This document shows positions 5,739 through 22,787 of a stretch of DNA of 23,060 nucleotides, piece after piece. This DNA comes from a virus: IMG/VR virus record IMGVR_UViG_3300005914_000110, positions 1-23,060 of that record; one strand, given 5' to 3'. The notes beneath the pieces are model-generated. The model did not search any database. It saw nothing but the letters and a program-made list of their open reading frames with translations, and was not told where the DNA came from. The number at the start of each line of letters is the position of its first letter. The stretch's first letter is position 1. Made by a program: the position numbers and the translations under genes.

Positions 5739-7355
5739 CTAGATACCGATATCGTCAAACAGTGGGGGTTCCACCTCTATTTCCTCGTATTGTTCGGTAA
5801 ATCGCGCCTGTTTACGCATCTGCCATCCGATAGTTGCAGCCAGAAGTAAATCGAAATGTCTGGTAGCCATACCAATCTTACTATCGGTCATATCCATAGT
5901 CGTATAGCCCCGCATTTCCTTCAACAAGTTCTTGTCGTATATCTTAATCTTGCCGTCGTTGTAGGCTTTACGGAACTCGAAGAACATTAAAGGCTTACTC
6001 TTACGCGTAGTGTGCCAGCCGAGCTTCTCAGTTCGCTTAATCGTGCGACTGCCCTCGTTCACCTGAGTATAGATATTGTTGTACCCGCGCATAGCAGCTA
6101 AGGTAGCGTGCCCGGTGTTGTTGGCTTCTGGCCCGATAATACATTTACCGTACTCGTTGCCGATACGAACCAGCTCGTTACCAAACAAGTCGGGTGGGAT
6201 GCGGTTATTAAAGTAGGTAGCAATTAGCACAGCTACGTCGTCGTCAAATGTCCCAAAGTCATATAGGGCTAGCGTGTTCGCGTCGCGACCTATCCCTTCG
6301 CTCGTATCAGCCCCAATACCGTACTTGTGGTGTGGCTGGTATTTACCCCAGTACTTTACCCCAGCGCTTTCCTCGTGGGGCTGGGTAGCAGCAGCAATGT
6401 CCCGATCAACAAATATACGATCAAAAAAGGCTGTATCGGCCCGGGACGGGTCGCACATATACTCGCCATAGAAATCCTCGGCATCGGACTTTATACTCTC
6501 TATCTTAGCTTTGTTGTAGCGCTCAGGCCACGTTGGTTCACCATCCTCATCCATGATAGCGATTTTATCAACCACGATGTCCGACTTGTTTAAAAACCAC
6601 TGGATGACCCCTTCATCCGAAATATAGTTCCCGTTGCACATATAGTTCCCGTCAGCCGACAAAGAACTAATCGCCTCATCGATCCGAAAGATAGTCGCCT
6701 CGGTAGTGGTCAAAGATCCAATCGACTCCCGGTCTTCCACGTCGTCAAAGATAATCCAGTCAGGCCGGTTAGCATCCTGAATGTGCCCACGCTGGGTCTG
6801 CCCAATCGTACCAGCCAACAGCTTACGCCCGTCGCGGGTGGTAAAACTACCCATCGTCTCCTCGCGCTTCTTGGCATCATCCTTTACAAAGATGTCGCCG
6901 TATATCGCACGCATCTCAACGCACATGTTAAACACGTCCGTTACGATCTGCTTGGCGTTACCGAGGTTTCTGGTCAAAACCTTAATGTACTTACGTGACA
7001 TATCGCGGTCGTTCAATATAACAAAGGCGATAAACAACTTAGTGAACGATGTCTTAGCGCACCCGCGAAATCCTAAGTTAAGATACTTGCTACGCCCGTA
7101 GTAGCTATCGATCATATGATCAATAAACTGATCGTGAAATTTGGCTTCCGGTGACTTGAAGTACCGGTTAAACATAAACTTACTAAATATTTCAAACTTC
7201 CAGTGTATGTAGCGCGTCGTGTCTTGGTCGCTGGAAAACGAAAAAAGCGAGTACATATCCTCGCGGGTCCCAGTCTGGAGTATATTGACGGCCATAGCCA
7301 TCAGCTTGTCGTCGTATTTCCCTTTAGGAAAGGGGTTGTGTACTTCGTCTTTCAT
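5739..7355 (-). CDS. terL: Terminase large subunit
   Basis: 538 aa. This is the packaging motor ATPase and headful or site nuclease. Residues 95-103 (GFRGCAKTS) form the P-loop, an unusual Walker A in which Gly-Cys-Ala precedes Lys-Thr. Residues 200-208 (WIIFDDVED) are the Walker B with the catalytic acidic pair. The RNase H-like nuclease domain shows the expected three acids: D350 in IGADTSEG, E410 in IIGPEANN, and D502 in ATRHFDLLLAA. It is full length for the family. The promoter TGCTACAAT at 7362-7370 is exactly 6 nt before the ATG, giving a probably leaderless message. The gene lies directly downstream of the large structured RNA region. Confidence 0.95.
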   Translation of the reverse strand: MKDEVHNPFPKGKYDDKLMAMAVNILQTGTREDMYSLFSFSSDQDTTRYIHWKFEIFSKFMFNRYFKSPEAKFHDQFIDHMIDSYYGRSKYLNLGFRGCAKTSFTKLFIAFVILNDRDMSRKYIKVLTRNLGNAKQIVTDVFNMCVEMRAIYGDIFVKDDAKKREETMGSFTTRDGRKLLAGTIGQTQRGHIQDANRPDWIIFDDVEDRESIGSLTTTEATIFRIDEAISSLSADGNYMCNGNYISDEGVIQWFLNKSDIVVDKIAIMDEDGEPTWPERYNKAKIESIKSDAEDFYGEYMCDPSRADTAFFDRIFVDRDIAAATQPHEESAGVKYWGKYQPHHKYGIGADTSEGIGRDANTLALYDFGTFDDDVAVLIATYFNNRIPPDLFGNELVRIGNEYGKCIIGPEANNTGHATLAAMRGYNNIYTQVNEGSRTIKRTEKLGWHTTRKSKPLMFFEFRKAYNDGKIKIYDKNLLKEMRGYTTMDMTDSKIGMATRHFDLLLAATIGWQMRKQARFTEQYEEIEVEPPLFDDIGI

Positions 7356-7361
7356 CTATGT

Positions 7362-7370
7362 ATTGTAGCA
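7362..7370 (-). promoter_or_regulatory. Extended -10 promoter for terL, leaderless type
   Basis: The minus strand reads TGCTACAAT, then 6 nt, then ATG. It overlaps the 3' edge of the structured RNA region, so the RNA and terL can be separate transcription units. Confidence 0.6.
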
Positions 7371-7858
7371 TGGGGGTGCTGTGCTTTGCCCTATAACCTA
7401 GATGAGAGCGACTCACCTCCACCATAGCTTTTCAGGGACTACAGTCTTCGGTTACAGGGCGGAACACACCATCTATACATTAAGGACTAAGGTGAGAGTT
7501 TGAGGTAAGGATTTGCCGAGATGTTTTTATTTGCTGTACAACAAACTTGATAACACTGTTCTAGAACGGGGTCGAAACCCCCTAGACATCTACTCGTATA
7601 GTCAGCCTTACATAGTAAAGGTTAAGCTTCTGCTGTTCTTTACAGCCACTCAAACCCTCGCTTTAATTCTCAATGTACTGTGATGACAGGCTAAATGGAC
7701 GGTATCACTTTTCTGGGAGCTACCCATCGCTTGGCACCTTGTATACAAGTGTGTGACATACCGTTAGGTCGAAACCAACCGTCCATTTAACCAACCATCT
7801 TGTACTGTGTAAGGGGCAGGTGGGGAAAAGTACTTTTCGTGCGGCTAATACGTCTATT
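7371..7858 (-). ncRNA. Large structured non-coding RNA candidate upstream of terL
   Basis: No ORF fills this stretch, but it folds extensively on the minus strand. Helices, in plus coordinates: 7845-7849/7856-7860; 7825-7829/7834-7838; a three-way junction made of 7692-7700/7781-7789, 7763-7769/7774-7779 (tetraloop) and 7701-7708/7753-7762, with 7780 as the only unpaired junction base; inside its third arm 7735-7742/7745-7751 and 7714-7717/7723-7726; 7494-7504/7649-7659 continuing into 7505-7510/7606-7611; 7519-7524/7586-7591; 7561-7572/7577-7585; 7530-7535/7540-7545; 7388-7398/7450-7460; 7401-7406/7412-7417. Four helices contain a position that is A-C if read on plus but G-U on minus (7393/7455, 7402/7416, 7497/7656, 7534/7541), and I saw no clear opposite case. 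A TATAAT at 7865-7870 would start it near 7858. Length and phage context resemble the ROOL and GOLLD RNA classes, but I cannot match their consensus by eye. Confidence 0.75.
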
Positions 7859-7864
7859 AGTTAG

Positions 7865-7870
7865 ATTATA
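7865..7870 (-). promoter_or_regulatory. -10 box for the structured RNA
   Basis: A perfect TATAAT on the minus strand in an intergenic position, with a predicted start about 7 nt downstream at the edge of the first RNA hairpin. No clear -35 or TGN extension is present. Confidence 0.5.
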
Positions 7871-7906
7871 ACCTCCTAAGTGATAACACGTTCCCCCATC
7901 TACCTC

Positions 7907-8107
7907 TTACAAATATATGTTTTCTAACGTTTTTCCGTATACGTTTAGTTTTATTTGTTCTTCGTTGGTTAATTTAGTGCCGTTTATTTGTTTTACTAAT
8001 AACTCTGTTACAACTTCTGCCATTTCTGTTAAAGAACTATTAAAAGACAAGTCTGCTGGTATTAATTTTGTTGTAAGCGTTTGCTTGTTTATCTTTATTT
8101 TGTCCAC
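7907..8107 (-). CDS. Small hypothetical protein, GTG start
   Basis: 66 aa, begins (GTG)DKIKINKQTLTTKLIPADLS and continues with a helical MAEVVTELLVKQ. The function is unrecognised. The GTG start looks odd alone, but TGGTAGTAT at 8114-8122 lies exactly 6 nt before it, the same geometry as the terminase and adaptor genes, which supports both the start and the gene. A nearby ATG at 8115 is out of frame and closes at once. Confidence 0.55.
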   Translation of the reverse strand: MDKIKINKQTLTTKLIPADLSFNSSLTEMAEVVTELLVKQINGTKLTNEEQIKLNVYGKTLENIYL

Positions 8108-8113
8108 ACTTTC

Positions 8114-8122
8114 ATACTACCA
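8114..8122 (-). promoter_or_regulatory. Extended -10 promoter, leaderless type
   Basis: The minus strand reads TGGTAGTAT, 6 nt before a GTG start codon. Confidence 0.5.
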
Positions 8123-8164
8123 CTAACCCTCTTTATTACAATGGGAGTTGTCCACAGTTATTGT

Positions 8165-8353
8165 TCATACACGTCCAAATCTATTCTCATAATCGTCTCC
8201 AACCAACACTCGACCTGACCATCGCCCGACTCGCTTGTCACACTCTGTACAGGTAATCTCGCTAATCCCGTCGTAGCGTTCAGGGTGGGGGTAGCCGTAT
8301 TCTATTAGCAGCATTTTACTTTCTGGGCAAGGGCAGTTTAGTTGTTCTTTCAT
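8165..8353 (-). CDS. Small zinc-ribbon-like protein
   Basis: 62 aa. Two cysteine pairs, CPC at residues 7-9 and CTEC near residues 35-38, are about 26 residues apart and could bind one zinc ion. The C-terminus is basic and ends DDYENRFGRV. Such mini zinc ribbons are common in phages and are usually of unknown role. A GAGAGGA just upstream of the ATG may act as a ribosome-binding site, one of the few in this window. A TATAGT lies 8 nt before the ATG, so leaderless initiation is also possible. Confidence 0.65.
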   Translation of the reverse strand: MKEQLNCPCPESKMLLIEYGYPHPERYDGISEITCTECDKRVGRWSGRVLVGDDYENRFGRV

Positions 8354-8361
8354 ATCCTCTC

Positions 8362-8367
8362 ACTATA
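8362..8367 (-). promoter_or_regulatory. -10 box before zinc-ribbon gene
   Basis: The minus strand reads TATAGT preceded by GTG, 8 nt before the ATG. It is similar to, but 2 nt further out than, the leaderless promoters elsewhere in the window. Confidence 0.4.
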
Positions 8368-8423
8368 CACCTCTGGGGGAGTATTGGTAGTTAGGTTGTC
8401 CCCATATAACTTATAAGTTATAT

Positions 8424-8651
8424 CTAAAAGACCAGATACCAGACTTCCTCAAACTTCTTATACCAGCCGTGATCTGACACATCTCCTTTGTATCTTCTTA
8501 GCTTTCGGTTGGCTTGCTTGCGATAATATTTTGCACTATGCCCGTTGCCGTAGTGGAACCACGTCTTGTACTTGATTCCTAACTCGTTGACTCGATAATC
8601 TTTTCGGGGGTAATACCTTCGGTGTAGACGTCTTGCTTTTCCATAGATCAT
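8424..8651 (-). CDS. Small basic hypothetical protein
   Basis: 75 aa, strongly basic and rich in Arg, Lys, Tyr and Trp (ARRLHRRYYPRKDYRVNELG; KYYRKQANRKLRRYKG). The composition suits nucleic-acid binding, but I know no family match. It follows an extended -10 box (8709-8717) with a leader of about 50 nt. No Shine-Dalgarno is seen. A weaker TGGTAGTTC sits close to the start. Confidence 0.55.
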   Translation of the reverse strand: MIYGKARRLHRRYYPRKDYRVNELGIKYKTWFHYGNGHSAKYYRKQANRKLRRYKGDVSDHGWYKKFEEVWYLVF

Positions 8652-8708: not shown

Positions 8709-8717
8709 ATTATAGCA
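8709..8717 (-). promoter_or_regulatory. Extended -10 promoter
   Basis: The minus strand reads TGCTATAAT and overlaps the stop codon of the helix-turn-helix gene. It would transcribe the small basic gene at 8424-8651 and possibly the genes below it. Confidence 0.55.
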
Positions 8718-9300
8718 CTATTTGCTTGTGTCTCTTATACCCCCGTTCCTTCTTTATTATACGTCCGACGTACTGATTGCTAATCCGGTACATTTTGGCT
8801 ATCTTACTTTGCGTCAAGCCAACATCTGCCAGCTCTCTAATATGTGCGTTGCGCCCTTCCATAAATTTCATAGTAATAGCTTTCTCTGATTCTTTGTGTA
8901 TGTCTATACTAGCTGGAATAAGTTTGGAACCTGTCCCAAAAAAGGCTTTCTTCTTGGTCATCTTCAAATCAATTGGTGGGACTAGACCCTCATCAATAGC
9001 TTTTATCACCCTATGATAGTTCATGGTACTTAGATTATTTTCTCTACACCATTCCTCTAGCACACGTTTATCCTCTTCTGGGAGTTCTGCCATAGCCACT
9101 TCCGGTACATCTCTAAGTACTATAACTTGACCTGATGAGGCTGTAAGCTTTTGGGTATTATTCTTAATGAGCAAGTCTGTGATCCTTTGGATAATCGCGG
9201 CGCGTTGTTTAGCGATTTCCTTTATCTCATACATTAAAAAAGAGGCGCGAGCCACCAATAAGTCAAAATCCTCTAAGGAATCTTCGTTTTTTTTATTCAT
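8710..9300 (-). CDS. Helix-turn-helix DNA-binding protein
   Basis: 196 aa. Residues 1-50 are helical and charged. The C-terminal part carries a clear helix-turn-helix: VGLTQSKIAKMYRISNQYVG followed by RIIKKERGYKRHK, of the kind found in sigma-70 region 4-like and resolvase-type domains. Residues 60-120 contain a central segment (VPEVAMAELPEEDKRVLEEW). It probably binds DNA as a regulator, and its targets might include the palindromic sites in the preceding intergenic region (inference). Its start has no ribosome-binding site and is preceded by a roughly 150-nt leader that forms stable hairpins. A small-terminase role is less likely because the next gene upstream fits that better. Confidence 0.7.
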   Translation of the reverse strand: MNKKNEDSLEDFDLLVARASFLMYEIKEIAKQRAAIIQRITDLLIKNNTQKLTASSGQVIVLRDVPEVAMAELPEEDKRVLEEWCRENNLSTMNYHRVIKAIDEGLVPPIDLKMTKKKAFFGTGSKLIPASIDIHKESEKAITMKFMEGRNAHIRELADVGLTQSKIAKMYRISNQYVGRIIKKERGYKRHKQIVL

Positions 9301-9326
9301 TTGGTAGATTTATATTTTATAATCTG

Positions 9327-9464
9327 TCTTATAGCCCCTTTAACCCTCCAAATCCGACAGGTTTAGTGGGGGATATGGGTTAAAGTAACTATAAGATATA
9401 GGGTCGGTACGCCATATCGCTTGCAGGCTTGCAAGCAATCTGGCGTTACCCTCTAATCTTATAG
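9327..9464 (-). promoter_or_regulatory. Structured leader with mutually exclusive helices
   Basis: Three copies of one 7-8 nt arm alternate in orientation: 9327-9334, 9389-9396 and 9457-9464. The middle arm can pair with either neighbour. Pairing left also joins 9339-9346 to 9377-9384 (8 bp); pairing right encloses a very stable hairpin 9406-9425/9430-9450, plus 9400-9404/9448-9452 as a competing helix. Position 9418/9437 is C-A on plus but G-U on minus, so the RNA is most likely minus strand, the leader of the helix-turn-helix gene. The layout resembles an attenuator or switch; no ligand motif is recognised. Confidence 0.55.
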
Positions 9465-9484
9465 CAACCTTACTCAAAAGTCAA
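9458..9484 (-). promoter_or_regulatory. Promoter for helix-turn-helix gene leader
   Basis: On the minus strand TTGACT (9484-9479), a 15-bp spacer, then TATAAG (9463-9458) with TGC directly before it (extended -10). Initiation would fall near 9452, at the base of the stable hairpin. The -10 overlaps the outermost arm of the inverted repeat, so DNA-level and RNA-level readings of that repeat compete. Confidence 0.5.
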
Positions 9485-9599
9485 GAGCTTTTTATATATT
9501 GCGCGATGCCTTAGCGCGTTTGTCAAATTACCTTTTCAAAAATTGGGAATATTTTGGCGCAGGGATATAGTATCTAGCCGCCAGAAAATAAAAAGAACA

Positions 9600-13846: not shown

Positions 13847-14815
13847 ATGCAATCGAATAGTCCAAGTAACCACATGATTGACTTCATGCACCGCCGAGGC
13901 ATCACTGACGAAGTGATTGCCCTTTTTAATATTAGTATCTACGACCACCCGCAGATTGGTGAGTGCATCAAGATACCTTACAGCGACGAGCATAGCAAGT
14001 ACCGACGTGATCCAATGTCAGACATGAAGCCTAAGTACCTGTATGACGCCGGTGGCAAGGTGACGTTGTATGGGGCCGATGTGCTACTCGAAGGGCAGCC
14101 AGCGACAGCGCAGCCGCTACTGAAGCAATCAGTAGTCATCACAGAAGGAGAACTCGACACCCTTGTCTGCTGGTCAGCGAACATTCCAGCCGTGTCATCT
14201 ACTGGTGGAGCGATGAGCTTCCAGGAAGAGTGGGCTGTTACCCTCGCACCCTACGATGTATACCTCTGCTTCGACAACGACGCAGCCGGGGCTGAGGGCA
14301 TGGTCAAGGTCCTGAAGTACATCCCAGACGCCAAGGTCATCCTGTTCCCTAACATCACCGGCGTCAAGGACGTGTCGGACTACGTAGCGCTAGGCAAGGA
14401 CTTCCGAGCGCTCATGCAGTCAGCTAAGAGCTACGCATCAATCGAGGAGGTGATAGCAGACAAGCAGTCGCGTGACGCTGTTATGCTGCCGACCATCTTT
14501 CACGAGAAGTACATCGAAAAGGCACAGGAGGCACACCAGCGCGCGAATCGACCCGTGCCCACGTCTGACAAGACTGACGCCGTACTACGCGCGAAGGACT
14601 ACCCGATGGACAATATCATCAAGTTCGGCAACGACAGGAAGGCTAGGTGTCTGTGGCACAGCGAGGATTCAGGAAGCCTACATTACTACAATAAGACCAA
14701 CAGCTCTTATTGTTTCGGACAATGCGGCAAATCTTATGACAGCATTGATGCTTACATGCACGTACACAACATGGGTTTTGTAGAGGCTGTAAAGGAACTA
14801 AATAAATTAGTATGA
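13847..14815 (+). CDS. DNA primase-like protein, Toprim domain before a CHC2 zinc finger
   Basis: 322 aa. Residues 10-85 resemble the DnaG-type region leading into Toprim (RRGITDEVIALFNI; KPKYLYDAGGKVTLYG). The Toprim core is residues 95-180, with E100 in ITEGELDTL and the acidic cluster FDNDAAGAEG at 142-151. Residues 255-315 form a CHC2-type zinc finger: C268-x2-H271, C289, C293 within YCFGQCGKSYDSIDAYM. In DnaG and related primases the zinc finger is N-terminal, so here the order is reversed, and one extra residue separates the last two cysteines. It would synthesise primers with the AAA+ ATPase downstream. Its stop overlaps the next start (ATGA). An alternative is a Toprim protein with a DNA-sensing finger but no priming. 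Confidence 0.85.
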   Translation: MQSNSPSNHMIDFMHRRGITDEVIALFNISIYDHPQIGECIKIPYSDEHSKYRRDPMSDMKPKYLYDAGGKVTLYGADVLLEGQPATAQPLLKQSVVITEGELDTLVCWSANIPAVSSTGGAMSFQEEWAVTLAPYDVYLCFDNDAAGAEGMVKVLKYIPDAKVILFPNITGVKDVSDYVALGKDFRALMQSAKSYASIEEVIADKQSRDAVMLPTIFHEKYIEKAQEAHQRANRPVPTSDKTDAVLRAKDYPMDNIIKFGNDRKARCLWHSEDSGSLHYYNKTNSSYCFGQCGKSYDSIDAYMHVHNMGFVEAVKELNKLV

Positions 14816-15201
14816 TTAAATCCTGCCAACTATGCACTAAGGAGTTTAAATCATTTCCTAGCCGGAACAGGATTTACTGTGGTAAGACCTGTAGCAATAG
14901 GGATAAAGAAGGGACTTTTGAAGTGGGTCACGAGTGGCTACCAAGGCCTCTAGTGGAGAAGAGGAAGCACAGCGCGGGTTATGTTGAGATATATACACCC
15001 TACCACCCATTCAGGAGTGTACGCAACTCGGTCTTAGAGCACCGCCTGGTTATGGAGGAGATTTTGGGTAGGTACCTGACAAAAAAAGAAGTGGTACACC
15101 ACAAGAATGAGATTAAAGATGACAACAGGATAGAAAACCTGGAGTTGTTCTCCTGCCAATCGGATCACATCAAGTACGGGCATAATAAAGCTATTATATG
15201 A
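14812..15201 (+). CDS. HNH homing endonuclease
   Basis: 129 aa. The N-terminal zinc knuckle has C5, C8, C23 and C27 (SCQLCTKEF; YCGKTC). The C-terminal HNH nuclease has LEHRLVMEEILGR then VVHHKNEIKDDNRIENLEL, carrying the catalytic His pair and Asn residues of the HNH_3 type. It is free-standing between primase and AAA+ ATPase genes and overlaps both by 4 nt, as expected for a selfish endonuclease that slipped between conserved replication genes without breaking them. No intron is evident. Confidence 0.85.
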   Translation: MIKSCQLCTKEFKSFPSRNRIYCGKTCSNRDKEGTFEVGHEWLPRPLVEKRKHSAGYVEIYTPYHPFRSVRNSVLEHRLVMEEILGRYLTKKEVVHHKNEIKDDNRIENLELFSCQSDHIKYGHNKAII

Positions 15202-22180: not shown

Positions 22181-22209
22181 ACCCCCCTCTTTGGAGGGGG
22201 GTCTTTATT
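22181..22209 (+). terminator. Intrinsic terminator
   Basis: 9-bp G/C-rich stem 22181-22189/22194-22202 with a TTTG loop and a T-rich tail, 8 nt after the phosphoesterase stop. Confidence 0.92.
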
Positions 22210-22226
22210 TGTTTCTGATAATGGGG

Positions 22227-22232
22227 TATACT
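22227..22232 (+). promoter_or_regulatory. -10 box before third HNH gene
   Basis: TATACT, 9 nt before the ATG at 22242. The resulting leader would be at most a few nucleotides. Confidence 0.4.
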
Positions 22233-22241
22233 AGAGGGTAT

Positions 22242-22787
22242 ATGAAATGGAAACAAATACCACAAGTAGGAGGAAACTATGAATGTAATACAAACGGGGA
22301 AATCCGTAGGGTTCTAGGAATTGTAAAGTTCGGTAAACAAACAAGAAAAGTAGGAGGAAACGTTTTAAAGCCTAAGACTAAAAAAAATGGTTATCTTGAA
22401 GTTAACTTAACTGTAAGCAACACATCTAAAAGCTTTTACGTTCACAGGTTGATAGCTGCGGCTTGGTTAGATATGACTACAAATAACTTGCAGGTAAACC
22501 ATAAAGATGGTGACAAAAGTAACAACACAATTAGAAATCTTGAGGTTGTGACGCAGAGTCAAAACATGGTTCATGCGTATAAATTAGGTTTGATAAAACC
22601 TAGAAACTTTAAAGGTTCGAATCACCCAAACGCTAGAACTAACGAGGAAGAGGTTGTTAAAATAAGGCACGAACATACAAACCACCATAGTATAAAAAGA
22701 TTGTTAATTGACTACCCGCATTTAACAAAACCTATTCTTACTAAGATAGTGTACCGCGAAAGCTGGAAGCATGTGATAGTGCTATAA
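22242..22787 (+). CDS. NUMOD4-HNH homing endonuclease
   Basis: 181 aa from the ATG at 22242. An NUMOD4-like start (MKWKQIPQVGGNYECNTNGE) is followed by the HNH core YVHRLIAAAWL and VNHKDGDKSNNTIRNLEVV with the catalytic His and Asn residues. The C-terminus is a DNA-binding segment (ARTNEEEVVKIRHEHTNHHS). An in-frame ATG at 22191 lies in the terminator hairpin and is rejected. It sits as a single cassette between the phosphoesterase terminator and the next promoter, typical of a mobile endonuclease. Confidence 0.88.
   Translation: MKWKQIPQVGGNYECNTNGEIRRVLGIVKFGKQTRKVGGNVLKPKTKKNGYLEVNLTVSNTSKSFYVHRLIAAAWLDMTTNNLQVNHKDGDKSNNTIRNLEVVTQSQNMVHAYKLGLIKPRNFKGSNHPNARTNEEEVVKIRHEHTNHHSIKRLLIDYPHLTKPILTKIVYRESWKHVIVL

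Follow-up and report, generated by a model that had tools for sequence, protein, structure and literature searches.

The large ornate RNAs of phages are still poorly understood. GOLLD, found in phages and prophages, is a large structured RNA with a conserved and a variable region, and phage tRNAs are sometimes located in its linker (PMC12286853). ROOL is phage-encoded, has a length of about 600 nt with many helices, is often found near tRNA genes and assembles into an RNA-only nanocage (PMC12286853). The structures of both RNAs have been solved and their function is not known. Nested palindromes also occur in some mitochondrial genomes, in repetitive hairpin-forming elements that are found as intergenic insertions (PMC2800124).

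The DNA analysed here, referred to as the window, comprises positions 1-23,060 of the IMG/VR record IMGVR_UViG_3300005914_000110. A sequence-only reading of positions 7371-7858 had proposed a single ornate RNA of about 490 nt. The structure proposed there is upheld by folding (z -4.3), but its extent is not: the minus strand of 7375-7903 (about 530 nt) holds an array of four long hairpins in tandem, designated units 0, I, II and III. It is likely that this array, in its anatomy and in its function as RNA, is a modular structured RNA that heads the late genes. It would add to GOLLD and ROOL a class with a different building plan.

Anatomy, folding and covariation of the array

The array is flanked by the gene of the terminase large subunit, terL (5739-7355, minus; PHROG 38, E 1.3e-26), and by a 66-aa ORF (7907-8107, minus), which is taken from the ORF list, has no PHROG match and lies between a promoter-like sequence and the array. 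No ORF of note is found inside, as had been claimed. Each unit examined folds into a hairpin, and the base helix closes it. Unit 0 (7801-7903, minus) is a divergent unit I hairpin, recognised by its fold, by a homologue in contig L082 and by a match to the covariance model of unit I (7805-7913, 20.4 bits, E 0.014). Unit I (7678-7802, minus), defined by homologues in three other contigs and by covariation, consists of a base helix of 21-22 bp with the frame sequence AGAUGGUUGGUUAAAUG ... CUUAGCCCAUCAUCACAG and a branched payload, which contains a hairpin of 5 bp and a 7-nt loop, GUAUACA. Unit III (7375-7477, minus), identified from its homologues, is closed by the base helix UAGAUGGUGUG / CACAGCACC and also contains a stem of 11 bp, GCCCUGUAACC/GGUUAUAGGGC. 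Across the arrays its frame is UAGAUGGUGUG ... CACAGCAUCACC; a single G.G mismatch is usual and is replaced by a C-G pair in L043.

Unit II (7474-7679, minus) has the base helix GUACAUUGAGAAUUAAAGCGAGG / CCUUAGUCCUUAAUGUAU, kept in five other contigs, and its frame across the arrays is GUACAUUGAGAAUUAAAGCGAGG ... CCUCACCUUAGUCCUUAAUGUAU. It carries payload X (7498-7655, minus), the same helices of which are present in a free-standing copy in L043. Payload X is formed by an acceptor-like stem GUUUGAG/CUCAAAC (7649-7655 with 7498-7504), a second stem GUAAGG/CCUUAC (7605-7610 with 7505-7510), a stem CGAG/CUCG and a nested hairpin at 7561-7585. The helices named in the sequence-only reading are present in this fold and its nested arms broadly match the description; the continuous strand 7494-7510 does pair with two separate partners, 7649-7657 and 7605-7610.

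The minus strand of 7356-7906 folds with -178.4 kcal/mol and a z-value of -4.3 against dinucleotide shuffles, compared with -3.0 for the plus strand. For units I-III the values are -5.3 for the sense and -3.8 for the antisense strand. Across the seven arrays described below the z-values range from -3.3 to -8.0, and the sense value is below the antisense value in all seven; the antisense folds are likewise stable. The sequence-only reading had also relied on four positions with A-C on the plus and G-U on the minus strand (7393/7455, 7402/7416, 7497/7656 and 7534/7541). All four letter pairs are correct, but the statement that there is no clear counter-example is false. Direct reading of the sequence gives three positions, 7485/7668, 7491/7662 and 7493/7660, with A.C on the minus and G.T on the plus strand, all of them in the longest helix (7475-7504 with 7649-7678). 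In the conserved base helices of all arrays, 13 distinct positions have G.U in the sense strand versus 7 with A.C, so that the G.U argument, offered as evidence of a selected minus-strand RNA, is suggestive only. The acting strand is probably the sense (minus) RNA, judging from the folding values and this tally.

Compensatory changes in homologues, on which the sequence-only reading had staked its RNA, are present in the base helix of unit I. Six of its 22 pairs have changed on both sides with pairing kept, each measure is reached by at most two of 500 shuffles, and sliding the helix abolishes the signal. The alignment has six rows, two of which are units of L042 with other payloads, and therefore most of the double changes come from L042. 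The 5-bp hairpin with the 7-nt loop shows two compensatory pairs (CACUU/AAGUG to CAGAU/AUCUG). In the helices of payload X there are four double changes, from two distinct sequences only, and 30 of 500 shuffles do equally well. For units II and III the base helices are too invariant to allow such a test. The covariance model of unit I (R1), built from four arrays, recovers the two L042 units outside its training set with 38.5 and 23.4 bits. The compensatory changes come from few independent sequences; together with the folding they support a large structured phage RNA, probably of the minus strand.

Homologous arrays and the exchange of payloads

A search of IMG/VR for relatives of terL gave L001 and L002, which are near-identical contigs, and L003. 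The terL of L003 is 93% identical to that of the window; a block of 184 nt is 97% and a block of 60 nt 98% identical, and the sequence between and after them differs. A search with conserved words gave L024, L042, L043, L044, L045 and L082. Matches to the first 17-base word in L018-L023 and L025-L039 lie mostly in unrelated genes and were rejected. Arrays are present in seven phage contigs (the window, L003, L024, L042, L043, L045 and L082), and L044 contains only the 3' end of a unit III. The order of units is 0-I-II-III in the window and L082, I-II-III in L003 (cut by the contig end), I-II-III-III-III in L024, I-I-II-III in L042, II-III after a degenerate unit I in L043, and III-III in L045. 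Since L045 is without units I and II, no single unit is essential everywhere. Homologues of unit I are found in L003, L024 and L082, and twice in L042 with other payloads. The unit II base helix is kept in L003, L024, L042, L043 and L082 with different payloads, and unit III occurs with other payloads in L003, L024 (three), L042, L043, L045 (two) and L082.

Most of the phages that carry the array differ in their genes. With the window, L043 has no ORF in common; L024 and L042 each have one distant ORF, L045 two and L082 five. The terminase belongs to phrog_38 in the window, L045 and L082, and to phrog_2 and its allies in L024, L042, L043 and L044; by these assignments the array is common to phages with unrelated terminases. 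No relatives of the array were found in GenBank phages or PLSDB plasmids by blastn, or in GTDB contigs by the frame pattern, and a terL profile search of the GTDB contigs gave no match. Frame motifs and model matches are also absent from terL relatives of 65-67% identity. As a control, two different frame motifs never clustered in 1.2 Mb of non-member loci on both strands. Among isolates, the relatives of terL are too distant and too mixed for a host to be named. The contigs L004, L005, L042 and L044 start inside the array or right at its end. It is as if assemblies were interrupted at this point, and the array may be under-represented in contig collections.

On the aligned sequences, the base helices are nearly invariant and the apical payloads are replaced, reordered and duplicated between phages. 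Unit I is 97% identical between the window and L003, while the adjacent terL shows 51% identity at its four-fold degenerate sites. This suggests either strong constraint or recent exchange, and the high identity could come in part from recent exchange between co-occurring phages. The frames are identical while the payloads differ, and this favours constraint on the frames or recombination at them. The payloads of unit III occur in the order b-a-c in L024, a-b in L045 and c in L043. In L024 the payload of unit II is a tRNA (Rfam RF00005, 42 bits), the acceptor stem of which runs on into the array helix, and in other arrays unit II has other branched domains. In L042 the loop of unit III holds a gene for a 156-aa HNH_3 endonuclease (443-913) that has a -10-like sequence of its own. 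With bases conserved and tips freely swapped, the arrays amount to a natural experiment, in which their comparison reveals which parts matter.

Some details of the payloads were also observed. In the tRNA payload of L024 (1168-1251) the anticodon arm measures 14 nt (UUGUU-GGCC-AACAA) and a free CCA end is absent; the payload is missed by ARAGORN at default settings. Payload X and the other payloads gave no Rfam tRNA match even at E <= 10 on short stretches. A resemblance of payload X to tRNA-Leu, noticed by eye, gained no support from the Rfam test, and a group I intron as an insert in its loop has no Rfam support and would be far too short. A lone copy of payload X at L043:12130-12300, outside the array, is enclosed by a perfect outer stem of 20 bp and cuts short a gene of which L024 has an intact version (1741-2085). 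The window has two further HNH_3 endonuclease genes (14812-15201 and 22191-22787, plus), one of them with a NUMOD4 motif.

Genomic position and possible function

A promoter-like sequence of about 45 nt, CTGTGGACAACTCCCATTGTAATA...TAGTGGTAGTATG (8113-8157, minus), is conserved upstream of the array. It occurs once per genome in the window, L024, L045 and L082, and each copy is located upstream of the array in the sense direction. The first unit comes immediately after it in L024 and L045, unlike in the window, where the 66-aa ORF lies between. A generic sigma-70 consensus scan does not list this sequence, so we infer from its position and conservation that it acts as the promoter of the array. 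The late genes are located downstream of the array in the same direction. Directly before terL there is an extended -10-like sequence, TGCTACAATACA (7359-7370, minus), conserved as TGCTATAATACA in L003 and L004, which would be the terL promoter.

The distance from the array to terL is 19 nt in the window, about 0.2 kb in L003, 0.6 kb in L044, 2.6 kb in L045, 3.1 kb in L082, 4 kb in L042 and 5.5 kb in L024; in L043 there is no terL downstream of the array within the contig as given. This variable distance makes a packaging RNA tied to the window terminase unlikely. The idea of such an RNA, raised in the sequence-only reading, is weakened because the adjacency to terL is peculiar to the lineage of the window. 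As far as gene order can tell, the feature common to all array positions is the head of the late region.

Other sequences in similar positions may be mentioned. The motif GACTAACACCCTATG precedes the start codons after the array (L024:1729, L042:1177, L043:12050 and L045:781), with no obvious Shine-Dalgarno sequence. Unrelated tandem hairpins (z -4.9) are found at the same site upstream of terL in L008, a relative of 66% identity (980-1430; also in L009); this region contains two near-copies of GTTTAATGT..GTCAAGCGTTCCAAACGAGGGCTAATCTTAGTCAAAAACATTGAC..ATTAAAC. In the window, a long nested hairpin at 9301-9540 (minus, z -4.8) lies directly upstream of a sigma-70 region 4-like gene (8710-9300).

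The modular RNA that we favour would be transcribed as one RNA from the conserved upstream sequence and would act as the sense strand. The array could be cut from the late transcript or accumulate as its stable 5' part. In each unit the base helix would be the conserved functional frame, and the apical loop would tolerate change, with payloads (branched domains, tRNA, nested hairpins, the HNH gene) gained, lost and exchanged there. The base helices would form a core on which the payloads are displayed, and the units would be shuffled by recombination between near-identical frames. The most likely mechanism, proposed tentatively, is that of a trans-acting structural RNA with a way of working comparable to that of GOLLD and ROOL. 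It is rather unlikely, but conceivable, that the array is a combinatorial RNA cassette system, in which structured domains (tRNA-derived and others) are swapped via the hairpin bases and expressed as one late RNA, with a repertoire that changes quickly, for example under RNA-targeting host defences.

A purely cis-acting role is somewhat unlikely but is the strongest of the alternatives. The array would then be the 5' untranslated leader of the late genes, acting in antitermination, in protection of the 5' end or through RNase III stems. It does lie between the conserved promoter-like sequence and the late genes, in the same direction, in several phages, and a short conserved tail runs directly to the start codon in most arrays. 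However, exchangeable payloads or a tRNA are not obviously needed by a leader, an ORF separates the promoter-like sequence from the array in the window, and terL of both the window and L003 has its own promoter-like sequence. The earlier statement that the RNA is not simply the terL leader holds to the extent that terL has this leaderless promoter-like sequence, but the array does follow a promoter-like sequence toward the late genes.

The tRNA of L024, with its 14-nt anticodon arm and its acceptor stem continuous with the array helix, could also mean that tRNA-derived payloads serve as decoys for host enzymes that act on tRNA, or evade them, and that the rapid turnover of payloads stems from an arms race. 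Evasion of host anticodon nucleases has been proposed for phage tRNAs in which the anticodon loop is altered (PMC10264068), which is an analogy and not a test. This explanation is improbable, as only a single payload is recognisably a tRNA, payload X and others have no match at the permissive threshold given above, and the payloads of units I and III are not tRNA-like. Equally improbable are selfish hairpins, palindromic mobile elements that nest by inserting themselves into one another's loops and have no function for the phage. Hairpins nested in loops, the gene truncated by the free-standing payload X in L043 and the HNH gene in the loop of L042 would fit such elements, and comparable ones are known in mitochondrial genomes (PMC2800124). 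However, there is a single array per contig and the copies are not dispersed, the order I-II-III is constant after one conserved upstream sequence, and the bases are far better conserved than neutral sites. A signal at the DNA level, such as the start point of packaging, an origin of replication or a site of recombination, or else a packaging RNA that serves the adjacent terminase, is very unlikely: the array abuts terL in the window and is upstream of packaging genes in most contigs, but its distance to terL varies from 19 nt to about 5.5 kb among unrelated terminase families, and the invariant G.U pairs of the base helices and the lower sense z-values in seven of seven arrays point to RNA.

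Comparison with known RNAs and elements

No Rfam family matches the window at the gathering score, and none matches positions 7300-8450 at E <= 5. At the same E-value the six homologous contigs gave no ROOL or GOLLD, and only the L024 tRNA was accepted. Membership in ROOL or GOLLD, suggested in the sequence-only reading, is not supported. Matches of MIR397 to payload X of L043 were rejected, since they are below the gathering score, occur on both strands and are caused by the long perfect stem. A sub-threshold match to the abiF RNA was seen at L045:2440-2475 (30.3 bits against a cut-off of 37). ARAGORN at default settings found no tRNA in the window or in the homologues scanned; the calls made with its intron option overlap each other, are of low quality and were distrusted.

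The presence of a tRNA in one unit II, that of L024, resembles GOLLD, a resemblance insufficient for membership. GOLLD has a universally conserved 3' region in its Rfam model, and the array has no match to this model. GOLLD is one fold, while the array consists of tandem exchangeable hairpin units. The array is similar to ROOL in being phage-encoded, of comparable size and rich in helices as predicted. Unlike ROOL, it has no Rfam match and no tRNA gene in the window, and it is built of modular units whose payloads are swapped.

Phage tRNA arrays also have tandem structured units, and one payload here is a tRNA. However, most payloads are not tRNAs by Rfam and ARAGORN, long conserved helices close the units, and one payload in one array scores RF00005 and no other unit does. 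The packaging RNA of the phi29 type is tied to one kind of packaging motor and forms a ring on the portal or ATPase. In the window the array is likewise encoded near packaging genes, but elsewhere it is far from terL and occurs with unrelated terminase families. Integron attC cassette arrays are shuffled serial units with conserved ends and variable centres, and the units of the array are shuffled in series in the same manner. In contrast to integrons, there is no integrase among the proteins examined, and the payloads are inside hairpins and mostly non-coding. The mitochondrial elements share nested palindromes with the array. Unlike these dispersed elements, it is one ordered array after one conserved upstream sequence, kept across phages, and its frame motifs cluster once per contig, with a lone payload X in L043.

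The kinds of payload found (tRNA, branched domains and a gene) are relevant to the open question of why RNAs of this sort are kept near tRNAs in phages. A new RNA class, which the sequence-only reading had allowed, is judged the best reading. By its sequence and building plan, the array is probably a new class within the large structured phage RNAs to which GOLLD and ROOL belong.
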